IMG/VR virus record: IMGVR_UViG_3300001533_001400 | Coordinates: 1 to 21,229 of that record | DNA: 21,229 nt | Strand: one strand, 5' to 3' | Origin: a virus | Shown here: in pieces, positions 3,608-21,229 of the stretch | How the letters are laid out: every line of letters starts with the position of its first letter | Numbering within the stretch: position 1 is the first letter of the stretch | Position numbers and translations under genes: made by a program | The notes under the pieces: model-generated | What the model was told of the DNA's origin: nothing | Databases searched by the model: none | Seen by the model: the letters and a program-made list of their open reading frames with translations, nothing else

Positions 3608-3608
3608 T

Positions 3609-6610: not shown

Positions 6611-6623
6611 AGTATCTATTTCC

Positions 6624-7136: not shown

Positions 7137-7437
7137 TAGGCCATTCCTCTGGAGGTAATTCGCCCACGTTAATTATCTCTGTATAAGTATTGCCTTTGTT
7201 AAACTGGAACCTAGCCACAAAAACATGGCCGGACTCACATACATATTTTATGCCGTAACTCACTCCTCTACCAACTGCTGAGCCTCTCTTTATGTAAGTA
7301 CCTGAATCTTTTACTACAGTAATTACCCCACCAGAATTAACATATATCTCTGTTGGATGCACATATTCAAAACCACACGCAGGGCATCTCACAGCAATAT
7401 TTTCATTAAAGTTTTTCAGCTCTTCTTCATAAAACAT
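7117..7437 (-). CDS. Hypothetical zinc-binding protein
   Basis: 106 aa from ATG 7437, chosen because AAAGGAGGAAAGT directly precedes it; the frame is open to 7458 but without a better site. It contains CPACGFEYVHP near residue 18 and YVCESGHVFVARFQF near residue 68, a CxxC plus CxxxH arrangement of a zinc-ribbon fold wrapped in beta strands. It sits between recA and the methyltransferase and overlaps the next start. The role is unknown. Confidence 0.75.
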   Translation of the reverse strand: MFYEEELKNFNENIAVRCPACGFEYVHPTEIYVNSGGVITVVKDSGTYIKRGSAVGRGVSYGIKYVCESGHVFVARFQFNKGNTYTEIINVGELPPEEWPSVIWRD

Positions 7438-7475
7438 ACTTTCCTCCTTTACAGCCACCTACTCACTATATCTGG

Positions 7476-8498
7476 TTAGTCTTTCTTCTTCTTGTCTGCT
7501 AGAAGGTTTAGGAACATTTCCTCAGTAAAGTCTTTCTCTGCAACCTTGCTCTCTCCAAAGTACAAGTACCCCGCCACCTTCTTGTCTATTATACCATCAT
7601 CTACCAAAAGATCTGCCAGTCCGCTCATCCTGTCAACGCCTGTCTCAAAATGTATCTTTATCTTAGCATGCCTAAACGGAGGATATATCTTGTTCTTTGT
7701 AATCTTTGCCTCAGCAAGAATAGCAACTACCTGATCTCCTTTCTTAATCTTCTCTCTCCTTACCAGCTCTATACGAACCGAGCTCAAGAAAGGAATTGCT
7801 TTACCCCCGGGAGTTGCCTTAAGACTAAAAGGAACGTTGATTACATCATACACATGGTTAGCCACCATATACAAAACATCATTCTTGTATATAAAGGGAC
7901 AGCTCATACGAACCCCCGCCTTGATTTTCTTTGCCTTACTCATATCATCCTTAACAAAGCCTGTTGCCTTCTCGTGCTCTGAGGACAGCTGACCTAAGCT
8001 GTCTAGCGCCAGCAGTATCTTTGCCTCAGGATCGTTCTCAAGAATAAAGGGAAGAAGCCCCGCCAGTTCCTTGCCCCGCTCCTTATCCTTCACCGCCCTT
8101 GCTATTGTCTTTATGCCAAACATCTCACCAAAGTGCTCTTCTACTGTTGAAGACACACGCCTGATAAGCCTGTTCGGATCCAGGCCGTTCATTCGTGCTA
8201 TGCTCTCACTAAAGGAGTCCTCGGTATCATCAAGGACACAGGCTGCGTGCTCCCCATGTTTCTCTAAGTGCCTAGCCATAGCCACGTTTATCAAGGTTGA
8301 TTTACCTGTCATAGGCTCACCATACAGCTCAACTATCTTGCCATACGGATACCCCTTAAGGTAGTCCCCAGATATTATACGATTAAGCGCGTAGTTACCT
8401 GTATCCAACCACCCTCTTACCTCTTTGTCCCTGCCAACTACTACGTCCTCCCCAAACTCGTCAGCTATCGCTTGAAGAAATCCTTTAGGTTTTGTCAT
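7476..8498 (-). CDS. recA: RecA/UvsX-family recombinase
   Basis: 340 aa, close to the size of RecA and T4 UvsX. Walker A GEPMTGKST lies at residues 60-68, the Walker B-like ILLALDS ends near 167, and SLKATPGGKAIPFLSS matches the conserved C-terminal core region after the DNA-binding loops. It would form filaments on ssDNA and drive strand exchange in recombination-dependent replication. ATG 8498 follows AAAAGGAGT. The gene lies directly downstream of the ssDNA-binding protein gene, separated by an unusual 129-nt leader, and a UvsY-like candidate precedes that, the usual phage recombination set. Whether it groups with RecA or UvsX needs a tree. Confidence 0.92.
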   Translation of the reverse strand: MTKPKGFLQAIADEFGEDVVVGRDKEVRGWLDTGNYALNRIISGDYLKGYPYGKIVELYGEPMTGKSTLINVAMARHLEKHGEHAACVLDDTEDSFSESIARMNGLDPNRLIRRVSSTVEEHFGEMFGIKTIARAVKDKERGKELAGLLPFILENDPEAKILLALDSLGQLSSEHEKATGFVKDDMSKAKKIKAGVRMSCPFIYKNDVLYMVANHVYDVINVPFSLKATPGGKAIPFLSSVRIELVRREKIKKGDQVVAILAEAKITKNKIYPPFRHAKIKIHFETGVDRMSGLADLLVDDGIIDKKVAGYLYFGESKVAEKDFTEEMFLNLLADKKKKD

Positions 8499-8627
8499 TG
8501 TAAACTCCTTTTATAGTGCTGTGGTGTGGTTCTCCAGTCAGTCACACGGACTCTCTCACTGGACGGCTCAATCCGCAATCTTGCCCACACACTCCGGCTA
8601 GCCCTGACGGCACAACTCGTATTGCTT
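8499..8627 (-). promoter_or_regulatory. Structured 129-nt leader upstream of the recombinase gene
   Basis: This is one of the longest gaps between genes here; most neighbours overlap or lie within 40 nt. It is GC-richer than its flanks. It contains an inverted repeat, TCCAGT (8563-8558) with ACTGGA (8538-8533), enclosing AGTC/GACT around a 5-nt loop, followed by the SD AAAAGGAGT. No convincing small gene, tRNA or sigma-70 promoter was found. It may be an operator or RNA element controlling recombinase expression; this is inference. Confidence 0.35.
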
Positions 8628-9533
8628 TTACTGGCTTAAGAACGTATCTTTACACGTAGCATTAAACGCACACGCCTTGCACTTCTCACTGCGCATGCTA
8701 AATGACTTTCCAAAGCAGTCAGGCGCCTTCATAGGCTCTGAGGACGGCTGCGCTACAGGTGCTGTCTGCTGTTGTGGTTGTGGGGCAGTATTAGTAACTC
8801 CAGCCTCTGCTTTAGTAACTTCTTCTGCGCCTTCTGAGGGCTCTCCGTAATCCATCTCTCCCTCAAGGATCCTCTTTATCTCTTCATACGTCTTAACCTC
8901 AGGAACCAGAGTTTTAAGCTTTCGTATCTGATCCTTCCAATTAGCAGGAAGCCTGTTCCCTATAGGTGTCTTGTCCGGATCGGGAGCCACAGAGTACTTT
9001 GCCTTTTTCATATCCTTGCTGTCCGGCAACGTCATAGTTAGTGTAAGATCCCGCCCTGTCTCAAAGTCCAGGGGGTCTCCCCACTTAACATTGCACCATT
9101 GCAAAACTTCAGTGTGTATGCTCGGCCCGCACTCCAGAACCTGAATACCTTTTACCGTTTCTTGATCGTTCTTAAGATCAATAACGTTCATAAGGTACCT
9201 GCGCCTTATGCCCATTGAATTGGCCATAGCCGCATCTCCAGGATCTCCTGTCTTTATCAGCTGAGCTACCGCTTCACAGATAGGACACCTGTTCTTTCTG
9301 TTTAGGGTCTTTGGACATACCACCCACTCCTTTGCACCCTCAGGACCTACGTCAAAATGACAGAAATACGTGTAAGCTATATCTCCACCAACCTTGTCCT
9401 CAAAGTACAACATGTCATGAGGCATCACCCTTATCGGATTATCCCCTTCTGTCGGCTTCCACCTGTCAGGCCTTGCCCCTTTCTCGGTCTTTCTTTGGTA
9501 ATTCTCTCTTGCCTTTCCTAAGTCTAAACCCAT
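8628..9533 (-). CDS. ssDNA-binding protein, gp32-like
   Basis: 301 aa from ATG 9533, preceded by AAGGAGGTTGGTG; two codons upstream read TTG GTG and are not used. The N-terminal part is basic. A zinc-binding segment with H, C and CPIC (CHFDVG ... CPKTLNRKNRCPICEAV, about residues 58-88) resembles the gp32 zinc subdomain in the OB fold. A flexible Gln/Pro/Ala-rich stretch follows (about 245-268), then a second Cys motif at the C terminus, C-x11-C-x2-C-x5-C, where gp32 has an acidic tail. It would coat ssDNA for the polymerase, primase and recombinase encoded nearby. Assignment rests on motif and position. Confidence 0.8.
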   Translation of the reverse strand: MGLDLGKARENYQRKTEKGARPDRWKPTEGDNPIRVMPHDMLYFEDKVGGDIAYTYFCHFDVGPEGAKEWVVCPKTLNRKNRCPICEAVAQLIKTGDPGDAAMANSMGIRRRYLMNVIDLKNDQETVKGIQVLECGPSIHTEVLQWCNVKWGDPLDFETGRDLTLTMTLPDSKDMKKAKYSVAPDPDKTPIGNRLPANWKDQIRKLKTLVPEVKTYEEIKRILEGEMDYGEPSEGAEEVTKAEAGVTNTAPQPQQQTAPVAQPSSEPMKAPDCFGKSFSMRSEKCKACAFNATCKDTFLSQ

Positions 9534-9566
9534 CACCAACCTCCTTCTTTGTTTTACTGCTGTTAA

Positions 9567-10082
9567 TTATAGCGGACCATCATGCCCATAATCCCCCGAA
9601 CCGTGCTCCTTTCGGTAGTTGCAACTTAGCTGAATCAACATATCCAGCTTATGCTTCAAACCCGTAAGTATCTTAGAAATCTTACCGCATATCACTCCCG
9701 CGCTTCTAAGCTCCTCACGCTTTGCTCCGATCTTGTCAGCATGTTCCAAGTACCTTGGGTTAGTTAAGATCATGGATTTAATAGCCGATTCGGTTGGCTT
9801 GTTAGCTCTATGTTGTTCACGCACTTCTAAATCAAGATGTGCATACAATATCTCCTGCGCATCTTTAAGTACGGCTAGCTCATTTTTAGCCTTCTCTACC
9901 GCATCGTTTGCCTCCACCTCAACCACCCCAAACCAGGACACTAACTCTGGCTGTCGCGTCAACTCACCTGTAAGATTATCTCCATCAATACGAACTATCT
10001 GACTTAGATTACCTTTCCAAGCAAACTCGTTGACTTTTATCTCCACTGCTGCATCAAGTCTCGTCATCTCAGGTATTGTCAT
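9567..10082 (-). CDS. UvsY-like recombination mediator candidate
   Basis: 171 aa from ATG 10082, which follows AAGGAGGTGA; an upstream GTG at 10124 has no good site. The centre is an amphipathic helix rich in Glu/Lys/Ala (QPELVSWFGVVEVEANDAVE, then AHLDLEVREQ), followed by TESAIKSMILTNPRYLEHADK and a C-terminal helical hairpin ending KLDMLIQLSCNYRKE. This pattern is that of a common helical phage family found beside recombinases and SSBs. T4 UvsY loads UvsX on gp32-coated DNA, and the position just before the SSB and recombinase genes fits. No unique motif proves it. The 81 nt upstream (10083-10163) hold no gene. Confidence 0.6.
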   Translation of the reverse strand: MTIPEMTRLDAAVEIKVNEFAWKGNLSQIVRIDGDNLTGELTRQPELVSWFGVVEVEANDAVEKAKNELAVLKDAQEILYAHLDLEVREQHRANKPTESAIKSMILTNPRYLEHADKIGAKREELRSAGVICGKISKILTGLKHKLDMLIQLSCNYRKEHGSGDYGHDGPL

Positions 10083-10163
10083 TTCTACTTTCACCTCCTT
10101 CTTTACTTTTTTTCTTCCCCTCACTAGATATACACCAGTTTTTGACTTTTGTCCAAAAATAGT

Positions 10164-10430
10164 TTATACCCTAAAAAACTTTTTAACTTTTGAAAAAAGA
10201 CCCGCCTTCTTTAGCTCTGGAACTGCCACTAGCGGTGTCGCTATAGGCATCTCTGCTACCGGCTGATCAGCCACTTCCTCTGAGCTGACTGGCGCAAGCC
10301 TTTCCACAAACCTGTTGTTTCTTACGCAATTAGGCCTAGCTTTGTTCAGAAGTACGTAAGTCGTAAGAACCTCACATACCTGTGTCTTCTCATCAAGATG
10401 TGCACACATAGCACAAGTTACTTTACTCAT
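10164..10430 (-). CDS. Small Cys-rich protein with basic tail
   Basis: 88 aa from ATG 10430, preceded by GGGAGG; longer starts lie inside the upstream gene. The N-terminal third has CAMC, then single Cys at about 19 and 35 (CxxC-x9-C-x15-C), a possible zinc site. A Pro/Val/Ala-rich linker follows, and the protein ends with a basic amphipathic segment, LFSKVKKFFRV. It overlaps the preceding gene by 8 nt. The function is not recognised. Confidence 0.65.
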   Translation of the reverse strand: MSKVTCAMCAHLDEKTQVCEVLTTYVLLNKARPNCVRNNRFVERLAPVSSEEVADQPVAEMPIATPLVAVPELKKAGLFSKVKKFFRV

Positions 10431-10578
10431 AACTTTTTCCTCCCTTGTTCTCATAAGTCTCACACCAACTACTACTATCTATATCCTCATCCGCTCTGCA
10501 CTCACCCTCCATATTCTCAGTCTCCGGCTCGTAGTACAGGCATGTCAAACATATTTTTTCCTTCCTAGGCCCTAACAT
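10423..10578 (-). CDS. 51-aa Cys-containing protein
   Basis: ATG 10578 follows AAAGGAGGATAGGA, and TAA 10423 lies within the next gene's start (8-nt overlap). The protein begins MLGPRKEKICLTCLYYEP and has CxxC at 10-13, then Cys at 27 and 39, the same CxxC-plus-two-Cys layout as its downstream neighbour. It is acidic, unlike that neighbour. It sits between the polymerase and the 88-aa Cys protein. The function is unknown; the strong SD, tight packing and Cys pattern support a real gene. Confidence 0.66.
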   Translation of the reverse strand: MLGPRKEKICLTCLYYEPETENMEGECRADEDIDSSSWCETYENKGGKSYE

Positions 10579-10591
10579 TCCTATCCTCCTT

Positions 10592-12871
10592 TTACAGTTC
10601 CTCTAATTCTCCCCAAGACTTACCCACCTTAAACTCCGCCTCAATCGGAACCCTTAGCCAGGTAAACAACTTATCCTTAGGCAACACATCAGATAGAATC
10701 ATATTAGTCATGTCCTTTAGATCCTCTATTACAAGCATTGCACTGTCATGCACAGTCAGAACAAACTTAGCAGGCAACTTAGCTTTGGTCTTCAACCGAT
10801 GCAGGTTGCTTAATACAAACAACATTATATCATTCGCGCTGCCTTGATTCGGCGCATTTACGGCTTGCCGTATTATCCTTCCGGGTATCTTGTTTTCAGA
10901 CCCGGCCGCGGGAAACCTTCTTATTCTGCCAGTAGGATAAACCACCCTGTGCCTGTCATAAACCTCACGAAGCACCCGCTTGTGCCAAGAAGGCAGCCCA
11001 GGATAACTCTTAAAGTAAACTCCCCGTATTCTCTCAGCCTCATCCAAAGATATATCAATCTCAAACTTGTCAAACAAGTATTGCTTCAAGCCCTCCGCTT
11101 GCTGCCCATATAACAACCCAAATGATACCCCCTTAGCAAGCTGACGTTCTTCTTTAGTTATGTCCTCAGATTTCTTGCCATTTAACATAACAGCTGTACG
11201 CACATGCAAGTCTGCGTGCTCTTGAAACGCCCTTATCATTTTGTACTCAGGCGCTATAGATGCGGCCGTTCTAAGCTCAATCTGAGCAAAGTCAAAGTAA
11301 AAAAACACCTTTCCGGTATCCGCCACAAACAGTTTATAGATCTCGTTGTTACGAGGGATGTTCTGAAGGTTTACATTCCTAGAAGCTATCCTGCCACTTA
11401 CGGTACCCACAGGATCAAACTGAGTCCTGATACGCCCGTCATAGTTAACTATCTTAGGTATCTTGTCTATATAAGTAGATAGCAGTTTCTCCTGCTGACG
11501 ATACTTTACTACAAGACGTGCCCAGTCTTTTCCCTTACCGGCGTATGAGTTAAGCGTCTCCTCATCAACAGAGTACCCTGTCTTTGTTTCCTTTACAGGA
11601 GACTCTTTCAACTTGCCAAATATAACTTCTTGCATCTGCTTAGGGGATCTAAGGTTTACCCCCTCAAATTCCTTAAACGTTCCTACAAGATCTTTGTATG
11701 CTGTATCTCGTGACTCCGCTACCAGCTTACGCACCTTGTCAGCCTGAGCTTGGTCTACCTTCATCCCGGTAAGCATCATCTCATTTAGAACAGGTATTAC
11801 CGGCATTATCAGCCTTTCCGCTACCTTCTTCAAAGGTTTGGAAAGTTCAGAGTCAAATATGCCATTCAGCTTGTACGTAAACCATGCGTCTTCGGCATTG
11901 TATAAAGAAAACCTAACAGGATCTGTCTCCTCTATTGTATACTCATACGGACCTATATGTTCCATTGCCAAGTCCTTAAGACCAAATATCATCCTGTTCT
12001 CGTTCAACAAAAACGCCTTTACTCTTGTGTCCGCAAACTTCTTAACCTCAAACCCGCGTGACTGCAAGAACTTAACGTCAAACCAACTCCTGTGGAAAAT
12101 GTGCAGTATCGTATCATCCATAAGAACTTTCTTTACAAAGGACGCCGCCTGCTCTGTAAACACAGGGTCATCTGGCTTGTCAAGCCATACTGAAAAAGCC
12201 ATCTTTTCTCCCGCAAAAGCTATGTGTGTAATACGTGCGTCCTTGTTAAAAGGGTCAAGAGTTCCGTTTGTTTCAATGTCAGTACCCACATCTTTCCGCC
12301 CTATCATCCACTCTTTAAGTATGTCAAGATTGTCAAGACTGTCCACAACCACTAGCTTCCTATCGTAAACAGGACAGTAAAGCGCATTGTACACTCTCCT
12401 AAGCCCGGACTTAAAGTCTGAAACTTTCTCAGGGCTGTATAACAAAGCTGCCGGGTGTAGAACCTTTACCACTGGTATTCCTTCCCACTTATCCTCCTTA
12501 AACATACTGCCTGCCACAGAGCCCGCACACATTATAAGCTTAGGAGACAACCTCTGTATCAAAGGAAACAAGAATTGCTTTGCACAGAGATTCATCTCTG
12601 CCTTTCTAGGCGTCTCATTTTTAGGCGGCCTGCACAGCACCACGTTTGCCACAGCTATCTTGGTAAAGTCAAACCCCATATCAGTCATAGCCTGCCTTAG
12701 TATTCTCCCTGACGGCCCCACAAAGGGCAGACCGCTCCTTTCCTCCTCAGCTCCTGGAGCTTCCCCCACAACCATAAGATCAGGGTTCTCTACCTCTATA
12801 GCAGAGACCCTAACACAGTCTTTGTATTTGCAGGCACTACACAAGTCTGTCTTTTCCAACTGTTCTACCAC
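10592..12871 (-). CDS. polA: Family 4 uracil-DNA glycosylase fused to family A DNA polymerase
   Basis: 759 aa. Residues 1-165 match family 4 (Fe-S) uracil-DNA glycosylase: VVGEAPGAEEE (34-44), LPFVGPSG (48-55), HPAALL (139-144) and likely cluster cysteines C11, C14, C80 and C96. Residues 195-350 are a 3'-5' exonuclease: GTDIETNG (DxE, 198-200) and HRSWFDVKFL. Residues 400-759 are the polymerase: GTVSGRIAS and NLQNIP, motif A DFAQIELR, motif B RQLAKGVSFGLLYG and motif C LTVHDSAM. There is no 5' nuclease domain. It would be the replicative polymerase. GTG 12871, with AAAGGA upstream, overlaps the end of the preceding gene by 7 nt; this start includes C11 and C14. Whether the glycosylase part is active or only a DNA-binding module is unknown. 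Confidence 0.93.
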   Translation of the reverse strand: MVEQLEKTDLCSACKYKDCVRVSAIEVENPDLMVVGEAPGAEEERSGLPFVGPSGRILRQAMTDMGFDFTKIAVANVVLCRPPKNETPRKAEMNLCAKQFLFPLIQRLSPKLIMCAGSVAGSMFKEDKWEGIPVVKVLHPAALLYSPEKVSDFKSGLRRVYNALYCPVYDRKLVVVDSLDNLDILKEWMIGRKDVGTDIETNGTLDPFNKDARITHIAFAGEKMAFSVWLDKPDDPVFTEQAASFVKKVLMDDTILHIFHRSWFDVKFLQSRGFEVKKFADTRVKAFLLNENRMIFGLKDLAMEHIGPYEYTIEETDPVRFSLYNAEDAWFTYKLNGIFDSELSKPLKKVAERLIMPVIPVLNEMMLTGMKVDQAQADKVRKLVAESRDTAYKDLVGTFKEFEGVNLRSPKQMQEVIFGKLKESPVKETKTGYSVDEETLNSYAGKGKDWARLVVKYRQQEKLLSTYIDKIPKIVNYDGRIRTQFDPVGTVSGRIASRNVNLQNIPRNNEIYKLFVADTGKVFFYFDFAQIELRTAASIAPEYKMIRAFQEHADLHVRTAVMLNGKKSEDITKEERQLAKGVSFGLLYGQQAEGLKQYLFDKFEIDISLDEAERIRGVYFKSYPGLPSWHKRVLREVYDRHRVVYPTGRIRRFPAAGSENKIPGRIIRQAVNAPNQGSANDIMLFVLSNLHRLKTKAKLPAKFVLTVHDSAMLVIEDLKDMTNMILSDVLPKDKLFTWLRVPIEAEFKVGKSWGELEEL

Positions 12872-13248
12872 TCCATGTCCTTTCCTTGAATAGTGCGAAT
12901 TTGCTGTTGAATCTTCATTATCTCCTGGTCTGCTGATATTATATCCGATTTCTTAGACTTAGCCGCCTCAAACATAGCCCGCTTGGTTCCTTCCCACGTG
13001 TTTATCTCTTTGCGCTTAGCCCTTATACTTTCACACAGCTTAGCCCTGTCAAGCAACAACAGATCCATCTTTTCCTTTATCACTGCCCGCTGGTTGTTAA
13101 ACTCTTTAATCTCAGCACGAATAGCCGCTATCTGCGGGTTAATCATCAAAGCCTTCTTAAACAGATCAGTCTTCTCTTTCTTTTTGAAATCCCGATCTTT
13201 TCTAAGTTGCTTTATCCTGTCTCTGTGCTGCTTAAGTAGTTTGCGCAT
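12865..13248 (-). CDS. Basic coiled-coil protein, unknown function
   Basis: 127 aa, almost wholly charged helix: heptad-like Lys/Arg/Glu-rich stretches from RKLLKQHRDRIKQLRKDRDF through AAIRAEIKEFNNQ to ISADQEIMKIQQQIRTI. There is no Cys pair or membrane span. ATG 13248 follows AAGGAAGG and lies inside the end of the GroES-like frame (17-nt overlap); its stop overlaps the polymerase start. The function is not recognised; translational coupling with the polymerase is likely. Confidence 0.72.
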   Translation of the reverse strand: MRKLLKQHRDRIKQLRKDRDFKKKEKTDLFKKALMINPQIAAIRAEIKEFNNQRAVIKEKMDLLLLDRAKLCESIRAKRKEINTWEGTKRAMFEAAKSKKSDIISADQEIMKIQQQIRTIQGKDMEW

Positions 13249-13480
13249 CTGCCTTCCTTTTGACTATTGCCACTATATGCTCATCGTTTAGTATAAGATA
13301 TTTCTGCCCTTCATCAACAACAGGAACCCCAGAACCTACCCCATAAACCACCACATCCCCAGGAACAGCACACACGGGGTGCAAGACCTTTCCTCAAGGT
13401 ATTATTATCCTGCCCCTAGTAATCTCTTCCGAGTTAAGAGGCTTTACCAAAAGCCTGCTTCCAAGAATTTTAAGTGCCAT
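13232..13480 (-). pseudogene. groES: GroES-like co-chaperonin with in-frame TGA
   Basis: ATG 13480 follows AAGGAGGAAAAAATA. The first 28 codons (MALKILGSRLLVKPLNSEEI, then RGRIIIP) match the GroES N-terminal strand. Codon 29 is TGA (13396-13394). The frame then continues for 53 codons with GKVLHPV, VPGDVVVYGVGSG, VVDEGQKYLILNDEHIVAIV, the rest of a GroES barrel, to TAA 13232. The region that would hold the mobile loop is very short. TGA is a normal stop for several neighbours here, so recoding is unlikely; CGA to TGA is a one-base change. The intact remainder suggests a recent mutation, a sequencing error or a split gene. Phage GroES homologues such as T4 gp31 help GroEL fold capsid protein. 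Confidence 0.72.
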
Positions 13481-13767
13481 TATTTTTTCCTCCTTGTATG
13501 AGACAACACCCTAGGCCTTCTGTTGCTCGACACAACCAAAACACCCGACTTCCTGAACAACTCCTTGACAGCGGGAATTATGTCTTCAAAGCACTGAATA
13601 GGACAGTGAATTGCCGCTATCTTCTTTTCTTTATTCGCCTCCAATATTGCAACACCTGTGTCCCAACAAGCCAACCCGGCCTTGTCTGCAGAACCACGGA
13701 CAACCTCAAGATCATTAGTATAAAATCTTAGTGTTACCGCCACTGTCTTGTTACTTACTCGCGCCAT
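13480..13767 (-). CDS. Conserved small phage protein, unknown function
   Basis: 95 aa; ATG 13767 follows AAGGAGGTG, and the stop TAA overlaps the GroES-like start (TAATG). It has the pattern VTLRFYTNDLE ... ACWDTGVAILEANKEKKI ... CFEDIIPAVKELFRKSGVLV. From memory this resembles a family of small phage proteins with a strand, a WDSG-like turn, a residual N and a helix; no function is known for them. The C-terminal 15 residues are very basic. Placement directly before the GroES-like gene may be incidental. Confidence 0.75.
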   Translation of the reverse strand: MARVSNKTVAVTLRFYTNDLEVVRGSADKAGLACWDTGVAILEANKEKKIAAIHCPIQCFEDIIPAVKELFRKSGVLVVSSNRRPRVLSHTRRKK

Positions 13768-13778
13768 TCGGCACCTCC

Positions 13779-13943
13779 TTATGTTTCTCGTGAACGTTTA
13801 TATTCGCTCTCAGCCGTCTCACGGTCAGCCACCACCTGAGCTTTGTCGTAGGCCTTTTTTGTCCTTACTGCCAGACCAAACCTTCCGGCCATTGAAGCAT
13901 GCTGCCCCTTTCGGCTCATTTTGCTAAAAGGTTTCCTTACCAT
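13779..13943 (-). CDS. 54-aa basic protein
   Basis: ATG 13943 follows AAAAGGAGGTAACAA; TAA 13779 forms part of the SD of the next gene. The protein begins MVRKPFSKMSRKGQHA, includes GRFGLAVRTKKAYDKAQ and ends in an Arg/Glu-rich helix. It is strongly basic with no Cys. The function is not recognised. The excellent SD and its exact fit between neighbours support it. Confidence 0.6.
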   Translation of the reverse strand: MVRKPFSKMSRKGQHASMAGRFGLAVRTKKAYDKAQVVADRETAESEYKRSRET

Positions 13944-13956
13944 TTGTTACCTCCTT

Positions 13957-14268
13957 TTATTTAACCAAAACACCTTGTTTGTACAAATAAGGACACTCGT
14001 GTGGATAGTTGTCCCACTTCTCATAATCGTTAGAATACAGGTTTTTAATCATCTTAAGATACATTGGGTCCTTCCATACCCTTCTGCGCTTTTCCTTGCA
14101 AAACTCTTTTATATGCTCAGCGTGCCTCCCATCCCGCTCTTTCCATTCTACCACTAACCTATCTCTTTCCTTAAATAACTCTCTTTCAGCAATTCTTTTT
14201 GTAGAACAAACAGCCACTACTCTGTTTGCCTCACAGTCACTTACCCCTACTATCCAAACATGTCTCAT
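13957..14268 (-). CDS. Hypothetical protein
   Basis: 103 aa. The start ATG overlaps the helicase stop (TAATG) and has GGAGAT about 8 nt upstream. The first 25 residues (MRHVWIVGVSDCEANRVVAV, then CSTKRIAER) look like a beta-beta-alpha unit often seen in small phage proteins whose first strand begins with a hydrophobic IVG-type motif. A charged helix and a Tyr/Trp-rich tail follow. No catalytic motif is visible. Translation is probably coupled to the helicase. Confidence 0.7.
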   Translation of the reverse strand: MRHVWIVGVSDCEANRVVAVCSTKRIAERELFKERDRLVVEWKERDGRHAEHIKEFCKEKRRRVWKDPMYLKMIKNLYSNDYEKWDNYPHECPYLYKQGVLVK

Positions 14269-16808
14269 TATTTATCTCCATCTTCTGGAAGCAACTCAAC
14301 CTCAAACTGCTCTTCCTTGTACAGGCTAAACCTCGCTTTTGAGTGCTTCTCTAAATATTTACCATCGTAATCAAAAAAGTCTATAACTGTTACTACGTTC
14401 TCACCTTCTTTCCTACGCAAGCCACGACCTATCCTCTGAAGTATCTGCCGTCTGGATTTCTTCCCGGCCGCCAATACCAGCAGCTCAATACGGCTTATGT
14501 CGATACCTTCGTCTATAATCGAACTTGAAACAAGAACCCGCAGCGTCCCAGCTCTAAATGCCAGCAGGCTCCCCTTGCGGCTTTCGCTGTCTCCATGAAT
14601 AAAGTCCGCCTGGCCTACTCCAAGCCTGGCATCGATCATGTCAATCAGAAGCTCTCCGTGCTTAAGCAAGTCCACAACTATTAGCACCTGCTTGTCTTTA
14701 TATTCACCACACACCCTGTCAACTATCATCTTATTCCGCTTTACATTCTCTACAATATACTGCTCAACAACCCTACGATACACCCTCTTATAAACAGACT
14801 CCTTCTCTTTCCAAGGAGCTGAAAATGTCACTCCCTCAGCACTGTCCTCGTTTCTTATCTGATAAACAATATTATCGTAGTCCACATCGTGGTAGCACTC
14901 AATCAACTTTATTATAGGCGCGGCTGACACCCCACTATCTATTAGCTCTTTGTTAGTTACGTTGTAGACCACATCTCCTATGTACTGACGCACCAACCAC
15001 CCATCATACGTGTCCTCTGCAGGCACCGTTCCTGAGAAGCCTATCCTATAAACTGCCCTGGACCTTCTAAAAACACTTAAGTGCGTTGCGCTTTTCATGT
15101 GATGGCAGTTTGAAACCACCCCCATAGCTTTCCCCGCCACAAAGTTATGTGTGTCCTCTACCTCAATATTGTAGCGAAGTCCCGCCTTCTGTATGTAAGA
15201 CACCCCCTCAACACGAAGCACAGCATACTTTTTAGGGTCACACCAGCCTCCCACAAACTCCCCCGGGCAGTATCTTGCTATCTTATAACGCATCTCCGGC
15301 AAAAAGTACCTTCCCGCCCTATCTACAAAACTCCTCATGTCCTGCCTTCCTATAACCATTACCCATCCTTTTTCATTCCTAATCTTTGCACTTGTATCAT
15401 AGCGTGTGTTAAAACCCCGACAAATCATATCGGCCCTATCCTTAGGCATACTATTCAAACATATCTTTCCATCTACTGTACCGTCATCCATATACGCAAA
15501 GGCCCAGCCCCTATCATCCATTTGATTCAGAAACCTCGCCAAGTCGTTTTTCCACTCATCGTAAATTCTCTTAATATCTGGTGTTGATACAGTACACGTT
15601 CTGATAATCCCGTTTATAGGACTAAACTCTGTTTTAACCTTTTCGTTCCGCTGCCGTATAAGGTTACGCAGTATGCTTGTTTTATAATTAAAATATCCCT
15701 CATGCTTCACCCCATGCACTATTCTTATCCTGGCCGTTGTCTTTGTCTCGGAGCATCCTAAGTCTCCTATCAAACCTCCCCTTAACAGCTGTTCCTGCCA
15801 ATCTCCAAGGGCTCTTGCTTGTGTGAACCTGCCTGTCATTTTAGGATAAACCTTTACATAATCTCCTGGTCTCAGTCTCATTGCCGGAGAAACCGTACCG
15901 TCCGCTAAATACCATTTATGCTTATCTGTACATATCTCCTTTAGTTGCCTGCAACCAAACTTTATTTTAACCCAAACACCATTATGTTCGTTAACAAAAC
16001 CACGACTAACCCTTCTGTCTACCCACTGGTCTTCATACAAAGAATATAATGACTTTACCCTTAACTCTTCTCCTGCATTAACCCTCCTCACCACTTCTTT
16101 TATTTTCATGCTCTTTCCGTCCGCCATCAATACTTGTGTGCTGCCAGGAAAACATTCATCAACAATAAGCGCACAACTACGGTTAAACAAGTTAAAAACC
16201 CTTCTGTCGCTGTCCAACCGGGCCAGAAGCGTCTTAACCATAGCTATGTTAACATAGGTGTCCGCTTGTATCAAATCAGCGGTTATTATGCCCACATTCA
16301 AGCCTGTCCAACCCATAAGCATTGCTCTTAGCTGCCCCAACAACTCTATGCTGTGAACAACTATCAACACCCCTTCCGCCCTAAGCAGCTTAACTAATGC
16401 CGCCATGATCGCGCTTTTTCCTGAATTTGTGGCCGCCTGTATAATACAGTTCTTCATTTCAAACGCCCATAACAACGCTTCCTTCTGATACATCCTCTGC
16501 TCCAACCCGTGTAGCTCCGGAACATAAAACTTTATAGGCTTATAGCTTCGCTCATCCAATACTTCAGCATCCGGAAACGCTGTGGTTACTTTATTAAGAA
16601 ACCCAATAGGAAAAGCATTAGCAAACTTCTGGAAAAAACATTTTGTGCCGTCCCATTTCTTATCTCGGTACCTGGGCGAAAACTTTGCCCCCGGCACCTT
16701 TATAGATAAAAGCTCTATTATCTCACGCCTCTCAAGCTCGTCATCAAGAGCACAGTACACCATTGAAGGGCTTTTGCGTAGATCAGAGTCTGTTATATAT
16801 AGTCTCAT
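14268..16808 (-). CDS. SF2 DNA helicase, UvsW-like, intein-containing precursor
   Basis: 846 aa precursor; removing the 349-aa intein leaves 497 aa, about the size of T4 UvsW. Motif I AATNSGKS lies at 125-132. Motif II is DECHH, split between E218 and the first intein Cys. Motif III is IGFSGTVP, motifs IV-V include VLIVVDLLKHGE and VLVSSSIIDEGIDI, and motif VI is QILQRIGRGLRR. The N-terminal 100 residues (YRDKKWDGTKCFF, FPIGFLNKV) match the UvsW-type substrate-recognition region. It would remodel branched DNA and R-loops during recombination-dependent replication. ATG 16808 lies 4 nt after the previous stop, with only a weak SD. The protein should be inactive until the intein is excised, because the insertion breaks the ATP hydrolysis motif. 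Confidence 0.92.
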   Translation of the reverse strand: MRLYITDSDLRKSPSMVYCALDDELERREIIELLSIKVPGAKFSPRYRDKKWDGTKCFFQKFANAFPIGFLNKVTTAFPDAEVLDERSYKPIKFYVPELHGLEQRMYQKEALLWAFEMKNCIIQAATNSGKSAIMAALVKLLRAEGVLIVVHSIELLGQLRAMLMGWTGLNVGIITADLIQADTYVNIAMVKTLLARLDSDRRVFNLFNRSCALIVDECFPGSTQVLMADGKSMKIKEVVRRVNAGEELRVKSLYSLYEDQWVDRRVSRGFVNEHNGVWVKIKFGCRQLKEICTDKHKWYLADGTVSPAMRLRPGDYVKVYPKMTGRFTQARALGDWQEQLLRGGLIGDLGCSETKTTARIRIVHGVKHEGYFNYKTSILRNLIRQRNEKVKTEFSPINGIIRTCTVSTPDIKRIYDEWKNDLARFLNQMDDRGWAFAYMDDGTVDGKICLNSMPKDRADMICRGFNTRYDTSAKIRNEKGWVMVIGRQDMRSFVDRAGRYFLPEMRYKIARYCPGEFVGGWCDPKKYAVLRVEGVSYIQKAGLRYNIEVEDTHNFVAGKAMGVVSNCHHMKSATHLSVFRRSRAVYRIGFSGTVPAEDTYDGWLVRQYIGDVVYNVTNKELIDSGVSAAPIIKLIECYHDVDYDNIVYQIRNEDSAEGVTFSAPWKEKESVYKRVYRRVVEQYIVENVKRNKMIVDRVCGEYKDKQVLIVVDLLKHGELLIDMIDARLGVGQADFIHGDSESRKGSLLAFRAGTLRVLVSSSIIDEGIDISRIELLVLAAGKKSRRQILQRIGRGLRRKEGENVVTVIDFFDYDGKYLEKHSKARFSLYKEEQFEVELLPEDGDK
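15108..16154 (-). mobile_element. LAGLIDADG intein in the helicase (349 aa)
   Basis: It starts at Cys219 (CFPGSTQVLMADGKSMKIKE, block A), followed by block B EICTDKHKWYLADG. The endonuclease domain has two LAGLIDADG-type helices: LLRGGLIGDLGCS and WAFAYMDDGTVDGK. The end is block F/G LRYNIEVEDTHNFVAG ... GVVSN, followed by Cys of CHHMK. The penultimate residue is Ser instead of His. Excision restores LIVDE-CHH, the helicase motif II. Here the endonuclease is in frame and part of the intein, unlike the methyltransferase intein. Confidence 0.9.
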
Positions 16809-16812
16809 AGTT

Positions 16813-17250
16813 TTACTTCACAACCGTTCTTATGCCTTTGTTGAGGCATTCCATATCAAGTGTTTTCTCACTAAACTTACTCGGGTGCATCCTGCACTCG
16901 TACACCCAGGTTCCTTTTGGCAACAAGGCCTTGTCCTTCACCTCTACAGACTTACCTCTTGCGCCCACCCGCATATAAAGCCCGGAGCAAGAATCACAAA
17001 GCTTTCCCCTGCTGTCCAAAGGACACGGGTCATGCGCAAACACCCCGTACTCTTTTCGTAGAGCAACCCCCTGGTCCTCAAGACGCTTCTCTATCTTAAT
17101 ACACCTAAGATGCGCTTTTTTGTTCCCGGCCTCACAGTACTTTATCATATTTTTTAGGTTATCGTCATACTTATCCGACACCTTCTTTATTGCTTCTTTC
17201 TGCTCCTCTGTCAAGTCATCCCATGTCTTTTGGTGCCACTTCTTACTCAT
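16813..17250 (-). CDS. Hypothetical Cys-containing protein
   Basis: 145 aa from ATG 17250, preceded by AAAGGGG; the frame is open to 17301 but only inside the primase gene. The N-terminal half is a charged helix (WDDLTEEQKEAIKKVSDKYD). The C-terminal half has CPLDSRGKLCDSCS and, later, YECRMHP and MEC, a possible zinc site. It overlaps the primase 3' end by 8 nt and ends 4 nt before the helicase. Position between primase and helicase suggests a replication accessory role, but that is only context. Confidence 0.68.
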   Translation of the reverse strand: MSKKWHQKTWDDLTEEQKEAIKKVSDKYDDNLKNMIKYCEAGNKKAHLRCIKIEKRLEDQGVALRKEYGVFAHDPCPLDSRGKLCDSCSGLYMRVGARGKSVEVKDKALLPKGTWVYECRMHPSKFSEKTLDMECLNKGIRTVVK

Positions 17251-18124
17251 TTCTTTTCCCCTTTCCCATCCTACTTTTAACATATCCCACAAAACCCTCA
17301 CACCCCTCAGGTATTCCTATTGACGCCACATCCTTTTCTGGTAAGTATAAAGCCCGTACCTGGTATCGGCCTAAGAGCATTGCCAGCTCATCCTCATACT
17401 TAAGCTGTTTAGACGCGGCATCCTTATCTAAAACCAGAACTACCTTCTTCTTTAGCACACGAAGGTAATCCTTCACAACCTCTGATATTGCTGTGCCCAT
17501 AAGAACCACAACAGTATGACCCAGCTTGTTTACCTTTATCCCGTCAAACACGCCCTCTACAACGTAAATTTCCTCATTGTCAAGACCGTCATACTTAAGA
17601 AGCTTGTCTGACTTAGAAACATCTGCGTGTAAGTACTTAGGACGTACGTGCTTAAATATAGTCCTTGCTGTCCAAAAGATCAGGTTGCCCATACCGTTTC
17701 TGAACGGAAACAGAACCCTCTCTTTCCCAGGCCACCACATTATCTCGTACTTACTCACATCTCCCCGTGTTATCCCCCGGCTGCCCAAGTACCCCATTAC
17801 CTTGTTCTCAACTTTACAGCCCACCAGGGGGACTACGCCCTCTGGAAGCCGGGCTTCTTTTATTCCGCGGGTATCCAGAGGGCGCTCCTTCGGTGGGATA
17901 GGAAGGTCCCCCACATAATGAATGTCTAAAAAATTAAGAAGAGATGTAAGATTGCCGCCCCGAGAGCAGACCCAACAGTGGTACTTAAGCTTAGATGAGC
18001 TTACTTGCAGGTTCCACCTGTCATTGTTACACCAAGGACAGTCCTTAAAAATTACCTCGTCCCCCCTTAGCCTGTGCTCCCCAAGCTTTTCTTTTATTTG
18101 ATCAAACAGTTTTTCTAGCTGCAC
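17243..18124 (-). CDS. DnaG-type DNA primase (CHC2 zinc finger and Toprim)
   Basis: 293 aa from GTG 18124, which has CGGAG about 7 nt upstream; ATG 18157 in the same frame has no SD and would deepen the overlap with the previous gene, but cannot be excluded. The zinc finger is CPWC (about 29-32) with CWVC (50-53). The Toprim core has YVVEGVFDGIKV, with the catalytic Glu, and VVLVLDKDAA with the DxD. It is shorter than bacterial DnaG because it lacks the C-terminal helicase-binding domain. It would lay RNA primers for the family A polymerase. No DnaB-type helicase is in view. Confidence 0.9.
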   Translation of the reverse strand: MQLEKLFDQIKEKLGEHRLRGDEVIFKDCPWCNNDRWNLQVSSSKLKYHCWVCSRGGNLTSLLNFLDIHYVGDLPIPPKERPLDTRGIKEARLPEGVVPLVGCKVENKVMGYLGSRGITRGDVSKYEIMWWPGKERVLFPFRNGMGNLIFWTARTIFKHVRPKYLHADVSKSDKLLKYDGLDNEEIYVVEGVFDGIKVNKLGHTVVVLMGTAISEVVKDYLRVLKKKVVLVLDKDAASKQLKYEDELAMLLGRYQVRALYLPEKDVASIGIPEGCEGFVGYVKSRMGKGKRNE

Positions 18125-18569
18125 TTCTGTACTCCGGTTTGTAAAACCCTTCCTCATCTAATAAAGTCAAAATGTTCGGGATGTCTTTTATTGTCTTGTA
18201 CTCAGTCGCCTCTATAGCCCCAGTAACTGGGTCTTTTAATACCTTCATTGGAATCTCATAAGAGCCCTTAAAAAAGGCCTCACAGCGTTCCATATTCAGC
18301 CCATAGTGCGCCCTGGATCCTTTCTCCGGTTTGAACACCAGACCCCCAAACATTACCAGATCCCCGAACCGCGCGGTGTGGTTTGCGTTGCCTGCCAGTA
18401 AATGGTTAATCTCTTTACGGGTAAACAAGTAACCCCCGCCGCGCCTGCGGACATATTGGTAGACACGGAACAGAGCCTGTAAGATGCCTCTGTATAATGT
18501 AACTACCCGTATATCTGGGCTGTGCTGCACACCACAGATAGGACATTTGCATATATGCCGTTCCTGCAT
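18102..18569 (-). CDS. Possible winged-helix protein with N-terminal Cys cluster
   Basis: 155 aa; ATG 18569 follows AAAGGAGTAGGA. It begins with CKCPICG at 7-13. The middle (about 48-95) reads like a winged helix: FTRKEINHLLAGNANHTARF as helices, then GDLVMFGGLVFKPEKG and HYGLN as wing strands. The last 30 residues overlap the primase start. It could be a DNA-binding or zinc protein acting with the primase; there is no decisive motif. Confidence 0.7.
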   Translation of the reverse strand: MQERHICKCPICGVQHSPDIRVVTLYRGILQALFRVYQYVRRRGGGYLFTRKEINHLLAGNANHTARFGDLVMFGGLVFKPEKGSRAHYGLNMERCEAFFKGSYEIPMKVLKDPVTGAIEATEYKTIKDIPNILTLLDEEGFYKPEYRSAARKTV

Positions 18570-18579
18570 TCCTACTCCT

Positions 18580-18753
18580 TTACCTTCTTTGAATCAGGTT
18601 TTTTACTGCTACAATAGCACCGCCAAAAGGTGTTGCTGTACTCATAACCACGTCCCCTTTGCTCATACCGGTCTTTCTTACAATCAGATCCTGCGTAAAA
18701 AACAACACTACAGCCATAACTACCATAAGCGCAACCAACACTAAACGTTTCAT
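18580..18753 (-). CDS. 57-aa membrane-anchored small protein
   Basis: ATG 18753 follows GGGGGAT; TAA 18580 overlaps the SD of the next gene. Residues 3-19 (RLVLVALMVVMAVVLFF) form one transmembrane helix or uncleaved signal anchor. A short soluble tail with GDVVMSTATPFGGAIVAVK follows. The function is unknown. SD strength, spacing and the helix support a real gene. Confidence 0.6.
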   Translation of the reverse strand: MKRLVLVALMVVMAVVLFFTQDLIVRKTGMSKGDVVMSTATPFGGAIVAVKNLIQRR

Positions 18754-18790
18754 TCTATCCCCCTTATTTGTTAAAACAGTCCATGTCTCT

Positions 18791-18937
18791 TTACAGCTCG
18801 TCTCCCAAAGCCCTTGCTATGCGTTTAAGAATAGCTTTCAATATTGTCTTATAGTTATCATCCTTCGCCTGCTTTTCCTCAGCCGTCAGCAGCTTCTTTA
18901 CCACCTCAAGCTCTCCTGAACTAAATGTCACATTCAT
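18791..18937 (-). CDS. 48-aa helical protein
   Basis: ATG 18937 follows GGAGGG at good spacing (MNVTFSSGELEVVKKLL). The frame is open upstream, and ATG 19009 (72 aa) is an alternative with a more distant AGGAG; the shorter form avoids overlapping the previous gene. The protein is a Lys-rich helix with EEKQAKDDNYKTILKAILKR. The function is not recognised. Confidence 0.55.
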   Translation of the reverse strand: MNVTFSSGELEVVKKLLTAEEKQAKDDNYKTILKAILKRIARALGDEL

Positions 18938-18975
18938 CTGTTTGCCCTCCGGCGGATCAGCCCCGCGTTCCCTTA

Positions 18976-19266
18976 TTACGGCAGTAAAAGACCGAATAAA
19001 AACGCCCATGTTATCACATCTCCTATCAACGATAGTACACCCCAGCATATAAGAAATATTGCCTGGCCGTTTCTCTCTTTGTACTTCAGGTTTATTCCGC
19101 CCACTATAAAGCCTACCAGAGAAACACACCATGTTGCTACTATCAAACCAAACATAGCCCAGCCGCTAAAACTCTTTACCAACTCCTCCTTGCTTACTGA
19201 ACACCCGCAGTGCAAGCACACTACAGCTTTATCGTTTACTTCCTTTCCGCATTCCTTACAATACAT
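18976..19266 (-). CDS. Zinc-ribbon membrane protein
   Basis: 96 aa; ATG 19266 follows AAAGGAGAG. The N-terminal zinc ribbon is YCKECGKEVNDKAVVCLHCG (residues 2-21), followed by two hydrophobic spans, about 38-58 (MFGLIVATWCVSLVGFIVGG) and 70-94. This zinc-ribbon-plus-membrane build is common in small bacterial proteins and of unknown role. It is a paralogue of the next gene downstream in coordinates (19296-19478). Confidence 0.74.
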   Translation of the reverse strand: MYCKECGKEVNDKAVVCLHCGCSVSKEELVKSFSGWAMFGLIVATWCVSLVGFIVGGINLKYKERNGQAIFLICWGVLSLIGDVITWAFLFGLLLP

Positions 19267-19295
19267 TTTATCTCTCCTTTACCTTTAACTACCGG

Positions 19296-19478
19296 CTAAA
19301 GCCCGCCCAGCACTCTCCCTATGCACCAAAACACTATTGCCACAGGAATTGCCCACGCCAGCGCTATAATAAAAGACGGGCTCTCTTTCTTCTTACCTAC
19401 ACTCTTTACTTCACAACCACACTTAACACACACCACAGCTTTGTCCTTTATATCACCTCCACATTCTACACAATACAT
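19296..19478 (-). CDS. Zinc-ribbon membrane protein, shorter paralogue
   Basis: 60 aa from ATG 19478, with GAGAGGG upstream; earlier starts would run through the preceding gene. The zinc ribbon YCVECGGDIKDKAVVCVKCG is nearly the same as in the neighbour at 18976-19266. After a KKK linker comes one membrane span (FIIALAWAIPVAIVFWCIG). The pair probably arose by duplication, visible at DNA level over the start and ribbon codons. Confidence 0.72.
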   Translation of the reverse strand: MYCVECGGDIKDKAVVCVKCGCEVKSVGKKKESPSFIIALAWAIPVAIVFWCIGRVLGGL

Positions 19479-19479
19479 T

Positions 19480-19626
19480 TTACCCTCTCTTTCTACGTTT
19501 ACTAAAGGCAAACCCTCTGACCAGCCCGCGCTTCTCACAAAACTTTTTGTACGCCGCCTTTACTCTCTTTGCGTCCCGCCATGTTAAAAGATCTTTGTCG
19601 TCTCTTGGATTTATTTTCTCGCTCAT
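19480..19626 (-). CDS. 48-aa basic protein
   Basis: ATG 19626 overlaps the TGA of the upstream gene (ATGA) with GGAGAAAGAGA upstream. The sequence is charged (MSEKINPRDDKDLLTWRDAK) and ends FAFSKRRKRG, a strongly basic tail. Its stop overlaps the region carrying the SD of the zinc-ribbon gene. No motif or function is recognisable. Confidence 0.57.
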   Translation of the reverse strand: MSEKINPRDDKDLLTWRDAKRVKAAYKKFCEKRGLVRGFAFSKRRKRG

Positions 19627-19859
19627 ATTCTCTTTCTCCTAAAAGGCCTGTCCGAGTATCTTAGCCCCATCTCGTTCTGGCAATCACACAAGTAGTCTGC
19701 GTGCATCCTGCCCTCTCTGCCCACGTATGCCACTACCAGGCCTTCTCTTAATGTTTTCTTGCAATGCTCACACCTGCAGGATCCTCCGTACCGGTATATC
19801 CTCTTGCCGATCCTGTTCACAAACCACTTGCGAGTATGTGCTTTATGCTTTGTTCTCAT
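19623..19859 (-). CDS. Small zinc-binding-like protein
   Basis: 78 aa. It has CRCEHCKKTLREGLVVAYVG in the centre and YLCDCQN near residue 57, giving two Cys pairs with a short strand between, as in a treble-clef or ribbon. Both termini are rich in Arg/Lys. ATG 19859 lies inside the end of the preceding gene with a weak SD (GAAAAAAG), suggesting coupling. The role is unknown. Confidence 0.66.
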   Translation of the reverse strand: MRTKHKAHTRKWFVNRIGKRIYRYGGSCRCEHCKKTLREGLVVAYVGREGRMHADYLCDCQNEMGLRYSDRPFRRKRI

Positions 19860-20127
19860 CTTTTTTCAATATGCCTTCTTTAAGACGCTTGCCGTAGTCG
19901 TCAGGTATGCTTGCTACATCAAAACCTTTTCTTTGTCGTTCTACCCCACATGCTAATCTTGCTATCTTCTTCTCCAATCCTTGCAATATCTCATAACACC
20001 TTTTTTGATATACTTCGGGGTTTTTATAATTTACAAATGCCGGAGGTTTCTTGAACCATATCCTCCATGTCAGCTCTACCTTGCCCCAGAAGCTTGTGTC
20101 TAGTAAGCATGACCATAGCCATCTCAT
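19843..20127 (-). CDS. Hypothetical protein, start uncertain
   Basis: 94 aa when read from ATG 20127, but the first 30 residues are Trp-rich and overlap the 46-aa frame at 20024-20164, which looks more natural there. The part from [20 protein letters not shown] on (20038 downward) is convincing: a helical segment with EKKIARLACGVERQRKGFDV. Either the gene starts internally or a +1 shift near 20040 joins it to the 46-aa frame. The function is not recognised. Confidence 0.5.
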   Translation of the reverse strand: MRWLWSCLLDTSFWGKVELTWRIWFKKPPAFVNYKNPEVYQKRCYEILQGLEKKIARLACGVERQRKGFDVASIPDDYGKRLKEGILKKDENKA

Positions 20128-20164
20128 AGAAATGGAATGCGCCTGTGTCTTTATCCTGTTTCAT
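20024..20164 (-). CDS. 46-aa frame, possibly the 5' part of the next gene
   Basis: ATG 20164 overlaps the previous TGA (ATGA) with AAAGAGG upstream. It reads [20 protein letters not shown], then [14 protein letters not shown], before TAA. The smooth coupling at its start and balanced composition favour translation. It overlaps the 94-aa frame by 104 nt. A single +1 event would fuse DMVQET to FVNYKNPE. Confidence 0.48.
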
Positions 20165-20334
20165 TGGTCATTCCTCTTTATATGCCAACCGATTACGCTT
20201 CTATATTTAAGCATAAAATCCTTACTTGGTTTTACATGACTTAAACCAAGAGCTATTCTTTTAGCATATTCTGCTCCAGCATTAAATCCCATACCATAAA
20301 CTATTGGTATACATAATAATATTAGCCATATCAT
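20161..20334 (-). CDS. 57-aa protein with one membrane segment
   Basis: The sequence begins [20 protein letters not shown], a single N-terminal hydrophobic span, followed by a basic tail ([18 protein letters not shown]). The SD is weak. It follows the 59-aa gene by 18 nt and overlaps the next start by 4 nt. The function is unknown. This stretch is clearly AT-richer than the deacetylase to the right. Confidence 0.5.
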
Positions 20335-20352
20335 CTGCTTTATTCAAATATC

Positions 20353-20532
20353 TTATCCTAATATCGCTCTTACTACACACAGCCATAAAAATAACATCCA
20401 CACCACTTCATATGGGCCTGGCTCCCATTTACAATGCTCGTTGTATCTATACTTAGGATCAAATGCTGTTGATATAGCCCAAGTAACAATAATTATTGCT
20501 ATGACATTAAATACAATATTTACCCATTCCAT
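20353..20532 (-). CDS. 59-aa protein with two membrane segments
   Basis: ATG 20532 follows AAGGAG, which begins right after the deacetylase stop. Hydrophobic spans lie at about 4-22 (VNIVFNVIAIIIVTWAIST) and 43-58 (VVWMLFLWLCVVRAIL), with a short charged loop holding one Cys. The function is not recognised. It is the first gene on the AT-rich side of the junction. Confidence 0.57.
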   Translation of the reverse strand: MEWVNIVFNVIAIIIVTWAISTAFDPKYRYNEHCKWEPGPYEVVWMLFLWLCVVRAILG

Positions 20533-20545
20533 TGATCACTCCTTA

Positions 20546-21229
20546 TCACCTTATAGGTGCTTTATGCACTAACCACCATGCTATTCTCTTTGCTGTTTCC
20601 GAGAGGTTCACATAGTGACGGAAGCGGCGGTCCCACCTCATGCCGTCCACCCTGGGCTGGTCAGGGTCCAGTTCCCAGGGGTGGCAATAGAACAGGTAAT
20701 ATCCCTGTTGCCGAAGGATTTGCTTTACACCCTGTCTGAACATCCAGGACGGCCACAGCCGGAAATACCCCCCGCCGCCCCAGGGGATGCATCTTCCGCC
20801 CAGCTTCAGGTTGCTTACCGGGAGCTCGACAAGGCCGTCTTTTTCGTTCATGCCATGGTTGGGGATATACCGGCGTATACTGTCCACCCTGCCGTATCGA
20901 TCGTGCAGGGAGAAGTCATTATAGCTGGAATCATAGCGATAGCCGAGTTCTTTAAGGAGATCCATGAGTTCCCCGGTTATGGAAAAGCTGGGGGCACGGT
21001 AGCCCCGGACCGGCTGACCTGTGATATTCTCAAGGATGGACCTGCTTCGATAAAGGTCCTGCCGGAGTTCAGAATGAGAGATGTCGTAACAGAGCCGGTG
21101 GCCGTATCCATGCGATGCCACTTCATGACCTCGGGCCTGTATCTCTTTCACCAGACCGGGAACACGTTCGGCTATCCAGCCAAGCACAAAGAAGGTGGCT
21201 GAGACAGGGAAACCATCCAGCAGATCCAG
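20546..21229 (-). CDS. Polysaccharide deacetylase (NodB family), 5' truncated
   Basis: 228 codons, open through the right window edge, so the N terminus with the first NodB motif is missing. It starts within FPVSATFFVLGWIAE, followed by HEVASHGYGHRL (metal-binding HxxxH type, SHGYGH), RGYRAPSFSIT, GYRYDSSYND, GGGGYFRLWPSW and YLFYCHPWELD. This combination is typical of the deacetylases in exosortase/PEP-CTERM exopolysaccharide loci. It would remove acetyl groups from a surface glycan. The gene is markedly GC-richer than the rest, and its last 10 or so codons (WWLVHKAPIR) are AT-rich and unlike the usual family ending. Its stop adjoins the SD of the next gene. Confidence 0.88.
   Translation of the reverse strand: MDLLDGFPVSATFFVLGWIAERVPGLVKEIQARGHEVASHGYGHRLCYDISHSELRQDLYRSRSILENITGQPVRGYRAPSFSITGELMDLLKELGYRYDSSYNDFSLHDRYGRVDSIRRYIPNHGMNEKDGLVELPVSNLKLGGRCIPWGGGGYFRLWPSWMFRQGVKQILRQQGYYLFYCHPWELDPDQPRVDGMRWDRRFRHYVNLSETAKRIAWWLVHKAPIR
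20547..20569. repeat. Two overlapping 13-bp dyads at the composition junction
   Basis: On the plus strand CACCTTATAGGTG (20547-20559, 5-bp arms) overlaps GTGCTTTATGCAC (20557-20569, 4-bp arms). They lie in the last codons of the deacetylase, where GC-rich sequence gives way to AT-rich phage-like sequence. They could be a recombination crossover or attachment core, an operator, or chance. Confidence 0.4.

Follow-up and report, generated by a model that had tools for sequence, protein, structure and literature searches.

The 3′ ends of genes are common integration places for prophages, and integration in the 3′ ends of protein-coding genes is known, e.g., for icd. Beside such a border the integrase of a temperate phage is expected. 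The right end of the virus record described here resembles these prophages in that the end of a bacterial gene is replaced at a sharp border, and differs from them in that an integrase, an attachment core, and a second border were not found in the record. The bacterial gene shares its domain family with the XrtA system polysaccharide deacetylase, and the copy of this enzyme in L003, a 16.7-kb contig of the MAG "Deltaproteobacteria bacterium isolate HyVt-14", is 93.2% identical to it at the nucleotide level over all 649 bases. Unlike the L003 copy, that in the virus record lacks the first 42 codons and carries a foreign 11-residue ending. No literature joining prophage, polysaccharide deacetylase, exosortase, and PEP-CTERM was found. 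In simulated viromes, chimeras usually made up less than 5% of the contigs of at least 10 kb, according to the relevant part of PMC5610896, and a chimera is therefore a known kind of error. As set out below, the right end of the record is probably a chimeric contig end rather than a prophage border or a captured gene.

Layout of the record

The window, i.e., the whole stretch of DNA analysed, is the full 21,229-base virus record IMGVR_UViG_3300001533_001400 and contains no N. According to the ORF list, the main ORFs lie on the minus strand throughout the record. The following features were distinguished:

1..20532, minus strand: phage replication module with its main ORFs on one strand (Pfam, PHROGs; relatives L083-L085)
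1-3168, minus strand: SbcD/SbcC-like fusion (Pfam/PHROGs)
3609-6610, minus strand: DNA methyltransferase, in pieces (Pfam/PHROGs)
7476-8498, minus strand: UvsX-like recombinase (Pfam/PHROGs)
8628-9539, minus strand: phage ssDNA-binding protein (Pfam/PHROGs)
10592-12871, minus strand: family A DNA polymerase with an N-terminal uracil-DNA-glycosylase (UDG) superfamily domain (Pfam)
14268-16808, minus strand: UvsW/DEAD-type helicase with a LAGLIDADG intein (Pfam/PHROGs)
17243-18157, minus strand: primase (Pfam/PHROGs)
Between primase and deacetylase, minus strand: small ORFs of 59, 57, and 94 aa, and more (ORF list)
20353..20532, minus strand: 59-aa phage-side ORF, the first past the seam, with AAGGAG at 20539-20544 just upstream of its ATG
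20546..20580, minus strand: foreign tail AWWLVHKAPIR with its stop codon TGA at 20546-20548 (sequence and translation)
20546-21229, minus strand: deacetylase ORF, open at the contig end
20547-20559: dyad CACCTTATAGGTG, 5-bp arms
20557-20569: dyad GTGCTTTATGCAC, 4-bp arms
20580..20581, no strand: seam (blastn end point; 20581 is the last base matching the bacterial gene)
20581..21229, minus strand: XrtA-type polysaccharide deacetylase gene fragment of bacterial origin (blastn to L003; TIGR03006, PF01522, PF11959)

That the left 20.5 kb are of phage character is well supported by the families of the replication genes and by the related contigs L083-L085. The 59-aa ORF nearest to the seam had no family match in Pfam or PHROGs. 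On the right, the contig terminates within the deacetylase gene at 21229, and no phage gene is visible there. Positions 1-3 of the record are exactly the stop codon that closes the SbcD/SbcC-like ORF, and the last base of the record is a codon boundary of the deacetylase. These ends may be due to chance or may be those of a gene-trimmed provirus record; gene-wise trimming of longer contigs is the practice of provirus callers. In the case of trimming, sequence missing on the left could lead to a different interpretation.

A bacterial deacetylase gene at the right end

A deacetylase typical of bacterial exosortase/PEP-CTERM loci had been noted from the letters of the sequence, and the family matches confirm a polysaccharide deacetylase, which runs off the right end on the minus strand. 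Pfam recognized Polysacc_deac_1 and DUF3473 in the fragment, and the TIGR03006 model, "XrtA system polysaccharide deacetylase", matched it over model positions 40-259 of 272 with 258.2 bits, under the cut-off of 276.2; the fragment lacks the N-terminus. The full-length gene of L003 scores 323.7 against the same model, above the cut-off. Using blastn, window positions 20581-21229 were aligned without a gap to positions 5001-5649 of L003 (605/649 nt identical), and the next-best DNA relatives were L004 (77.6%) and L005, a SeepSRB2-named contig (75.1%). MAGs reconstructed from hydrothermal vent sediment data, and MAG names of the HyVt series, appear in the pertinent passages of PMC6946796, in which HyVt-14 itself is absent.

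All 227 codons of the deacetylase frame in the window are open. Of the 44 mismatches with L003, 27 are located at third codon positions, and the changed codons comprise 21 synonymous and 19 nonsynonymous ones; thus, the window copy shows no sign of decay. In L003, the deacetylase gene is preceded by genes for an AMP-dependent ligase and a WbuX-like amidotransferase and by wecB, and is followed by those for a four-helix-bundle protein and a bifunctional sulfate adenylyltransferase/APS kinase. The wecB product scored above its cut-off (322.8 vs 210.15), the ligase matched the exosortase A-associated model TIGR03098 below the cut-off (398.6 vs 592.35), and the amidotransferase also stayed below it (143.9 vs 203.2). 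Judged by these neighbours and by the TIGR03006 match, the L003 deacetylase seems to be part of an ordinary bacterial glycan locus.

That a GC-rich deacetylase abuts AT-rich phage DNA, as had been noted earlier, was confirmed: the GC content is 0.556 in 20581-21229 vs 0.353 in 20340-20580, and amounts to 0.439 over the whole of 1-20580. When the phage part was divided into 399 overlapping windows of 649 bp, none reached 0.556, and the maximum was 0.499. The GC skew of the right part, -0.003 vs -0.286 in the rest, was reached by 3 of these 399 windows. Both the GC content and the skew of the right part are foreign to the phage.

The seam and the foreign tail

The blastn alignment ends at 20581, and of the 35 bases past this point only 5 agree with L003 in register, which is no more than random; the seam is therefore placed at 20580/20581 and the tail comprises 35 bases, including the stop codon. 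A changepoint based on composition only fell at 20603, 22 bases from the alignment-based seam. Three points are regarded as established: where the seam lies, that the part to its right is of bacterial origin, and that the part to its left has phage character. The ending of about 10 codons that had been called unlike the family thus proved to be sharper than claimed, as the similarity to L003 stops at 20581.

In the tail, an incomplete codon is followed by 10 complete codons and the stop codon. By it, the last 20 codons of the L003 gene are lost and the native C-terminus of the deacetylase, TAKRIENFLNDFRQHEFITCSEFLD, is exchanged for TAKRIAWWLVHKAPIR. The protein continues as NLSETAKRIENFLNDFRQHEFITCSEFLD in L003 and ends similarly, as FRQHEFITCSRFLN, in L005, while the window reads NLSETAKRIAWWLVHKAPIR across the seam and then TGA. 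The join is in frame, with a single base between TGA and AAGGAG and 13 bases between TGA and the next ATG. The tail is probably the end of another ORF that would be of phage origin; an 18-base piece of it had no exact match in the viral contigs. Directly before the seam, the window agrees with L003 over 53 bases without a mismatch. This run is no sign of an attachment core because a longer perfect run, of 104 bases, exists elsewhere in the same alignment, and it was rejected as such.

A chimeric contig end as the favoured explanation

Three readings of the junction had been offered: prophage integration, capture of the gene by the phage, and a chimeric contig. The last of these is favoured and the other two have been weakened. 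In the favoured reading, about 20.6 kb of a phage replication module would be followed by 649 bases of the deacetylase gene of a relative of HyVt-14, without biological continuity between the two, and the join would have been made during assembly or library amplification, near the run-out of the contig, rather than in a living cell. This reading is preferred because of the match to a bacterial gene with a relative in a glycan locus, the foreign GC content and skew, the place at the contig end, and the searches, which found neither a close viral relative nor integration machinery. The right part matches the bacterial gene free of gaps through the last base of the contig and makes up 649 of 21,229 bases at its extreme end. 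We consider such a bacterial end piece, cut within a gene on both sides and attached to a phage contig, to have the usual look of a chimeric end. The bacterial side continues natively in L003, in the genome of which no phage DNA was found at E <= 0.001, the only match being one of 22 bases (E 0.018).

A look for an intact deacetylase in host bins had been suggested as a check. The L003 gene of the HyVt-14 MAG runs uninterrupted past the position of the seam; it represents an intact empty site in a relative and fits the prophage, chimera, and capture readings alike.

The close viral relatives that were sought are those of the deacetylase as well as those of the phage side near the seam. Six peptide patterns derived from the query deacetylase yielded two stretches and no relative in the viral contigs, and 367 relatives in the genome contigs, bacterial and archaeal. 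Patterns from an alignment of 17 sequences gave 13 stretches in the viral contigs, with one distant match (28%, residues 33-99) and no close relative, and a search of the phage collection gave three records of 29-33% identity. The absence of close viral relatives is suggestive only, because these scans depend on short peptide patterns being matched exactly and may omit near relatives of the window. As to the phage side, the near-seam ORFs of 59, 155, and 304 aa had no relatives in the viral contigs and that of 94 aa had one partial relative. A DNA search of 19500-20580 gave no match in phages, and the primase had six records there, all below 33% identity and none covering 80%. Hence, a phage sequence continuing without the host piece was not found with the tail 18-mer and the near-seam ORFs in the viral contigs or with 19500-20580 in phages.

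Several points speak against a chimera. The join is in frame, which has a chance of 1 in 3, and the stop codon comes just before AAGGAG and a phage ATG. Such a closed join also fits a real fusion, albeit that the stop codon and AAGGAG would follow in any case were the tail simply the natural end of a different phage gene. A k-mer shared at the seam was not demonstrable, the phage parent of this spot having been found neither in the viral contigs nor in phages. The gene-bounded ends of the record (a stop codon on the left and a codon boundary on the right) are compatible with a longer host-phage contig. The figure of less than 5% in the cited part of PMC5610896 equally implies that a contig of this size is, in most cases, no chimera.

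Were the join left uncorrected, a bacterial glycan deacetylase would enter lists of phage-borne metabolic genes, and the phage would become linked to a Deltaproteobacterial host from one contig end. Were it real, the join would indicate a host of the phage and a possible means of altering the host surface.

Prophage integration and gene capture as alternatives

A phage that integrated inside the 3′ end of a HyVt-14-like deacetylase gene, with its last 20 codons turned into 11 codons and a stop, is an unlikely explanation, although it would account for a seam near the 3′ end of the gene, for an ORF closed in frame, for the 53 identical bases before the seam, and for the gene-trimmed look of the record ends. 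An integrase family or site-specific recombinase was detected in none of the 32 phage-side ORFs (PHROGs, E 0.01) and no tRNA was found. The seam is adjoined by small ORFs and then by replication genes that read away from it, and, as mentioned, the identical run is shorter than another run in the alignment. The record holds one border only. The second copy of 20547-20569 that had been suggested did not turn up in the window: for any part of 20531-20640, the longest repeat is 11 bases (20557 and 19838), which by our estimate is about the length produced by chance, with about one such repeat expected.

The genomes of possible hosts also argue against a prophage border. Homologues of the ssDNA-binding protein at E <= 0.001 were present in none of the 11 genomes of the MAG's family and in none of 297 genomes from the phylum, a search that had no positive control. 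With 601-20580 as a DNA query, only four matches of 21-26 bases were obtained, at E 0.018-0.083, in 4 of the 11 family genomes. The phage polymerase matches all four host genomes examined, at two places each and with 30-40% identity. We attribute these matches to polymerase I and uracil-DNA glycosylase of the cells themselves, because they are split into long polymerase-like and short glycosylase-like ones. Furthermore, an integrase is absent from the 56 features listed for the complete comparator MW202455 and from the 99 features listed for another, Serbin, in 31 of its 43 kb. Serbin does list a "DNA recombinase" of unstated type, and the polymerases of MW202455 and Serbin are only 25-30% identical to that of the phage described here.

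Alternatively, the phage might have acquired a bacterial deacetylase recently and carry it at the head of this operon, perhaps modifying a surface glycan of the host. This is likewise unlikely, even though the gene lies on the same strand as the phage operon, is closed in frame with AAGGAG and ATG at a normal distance, has stayed open over its 227 codons, and shows no decay in its differences from L003. Against it stand the deacetylase searches, with no close relative in viral contigs and only distant ones in the phage collection, the GC content and skew unlike those of the phage, the loss of the native C-terminus, and the contig's lack of a phage gene on the right. Slightly less probable still is the specific version in which the surface-glycan (XrtA-type) deacetylase of a HyVt-14/SeepSRB2-like Deltaproteobacterium was captured very recently by a phage with a replication module of the lytic type, which would express it as the leading early-operon gene with a C-terminus supplied by the phage.

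It is highly improbable that the dyads at 20547-20569 function as a site of recombination or attachment: two overlapping 13-bp dyads are indeed present as had been described, but their arms measure only 5 and 4 bp, and both lie wholly on the phage side within the foreign tail. Of the earlier observation of a sharp switch with dyads at the seam, the switch thus stands and the dyads do not, since they end 11 bases before the seam and were rejected as its marker. Per 40 bases, the window has about 0.15 and 0.5 dyads of these two classes, and at least two are present in 4% of the forty-base windows (173 of 4238). With similar dyads this frequent across the window, they are weak and near chance level, and they were given no weight.

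Related phage contigs and minor observations

The contigs L083-L085 (IMG/VR 3300031707, 3300031772, and 3300032046; 6.5-11.4 kb) contain, between them, relatives of the UDG-domain polymerase (48-56%), the ssDNA-binding protein (51-58%), and the UvsX-like recombinase (52-53%), all over the matched segments. At E 1e-3, neither the deacetylase nor any ORF right of 16808 had a match in them. Another contig, L002 (IMG/VR 3300001533_001235), carries pieces of two near-seam ORFs, corresponding to 19748-19860 (94% nt) and 20044-20164 (82% nt). These pieces stand apart, and 20165-21229 was unmatched at E 0.01 within 7018 of its 11,684 bases. At 400-512, 869-1012, and 2760-2872 of L002, there are two copies resembling window positions 20044-20164 (75% and 82% nt) and a separate piece with 94% identity to 19748-19860. 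We take them for small-gene pieces that may have been shuffled between related phages.

A possible CRISPR link was rejected. The best match of 601-20580 in the 11 family genomes has 22 bases (E 0.018) and lies in L099 of genome G001, with no array around it. Tandem Repeats Finder reported one 15-base repeat of 2.7 copies around this match, and a repeat search gave three two-copy families of 71-75%.

Two parts of phrog_67 are matched in the N6/N4 DNA methyltransferase, one by the start (aa 6-99) of an 889-aa frame and the other by aa 166-241 of a second frame at 3609-4364. The interval separating these two matches contains an intein-like stretch, in which an HNH endonuclease ORF lies in a different frame (5443-6210), as well as a further HNH ORF at 4455-5060. 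From this arrangement we infer that the methyltransferase may be interrupted by an intein and a further insert. A group I intron was considered and dismissed, there being no Rfam match up to E 0.1 in 3000-7200. The intein of the helicase at 14268-16808 contains a LAGLIDADG endonuclease domain, with PF03161 above and PF14890 below the cut-off.

The ORFs 18976-19266 and 19296-19538 have a CxxC-type zinc-ribbon-like start in common and both match phrog_2546 and phrog_4852; they are probably a tandem duplicate. A 50-aa ORF at 13232-13384 matches the end of the phage co-chaperonin GroES family (phrog_3188, E 1.7e-05).
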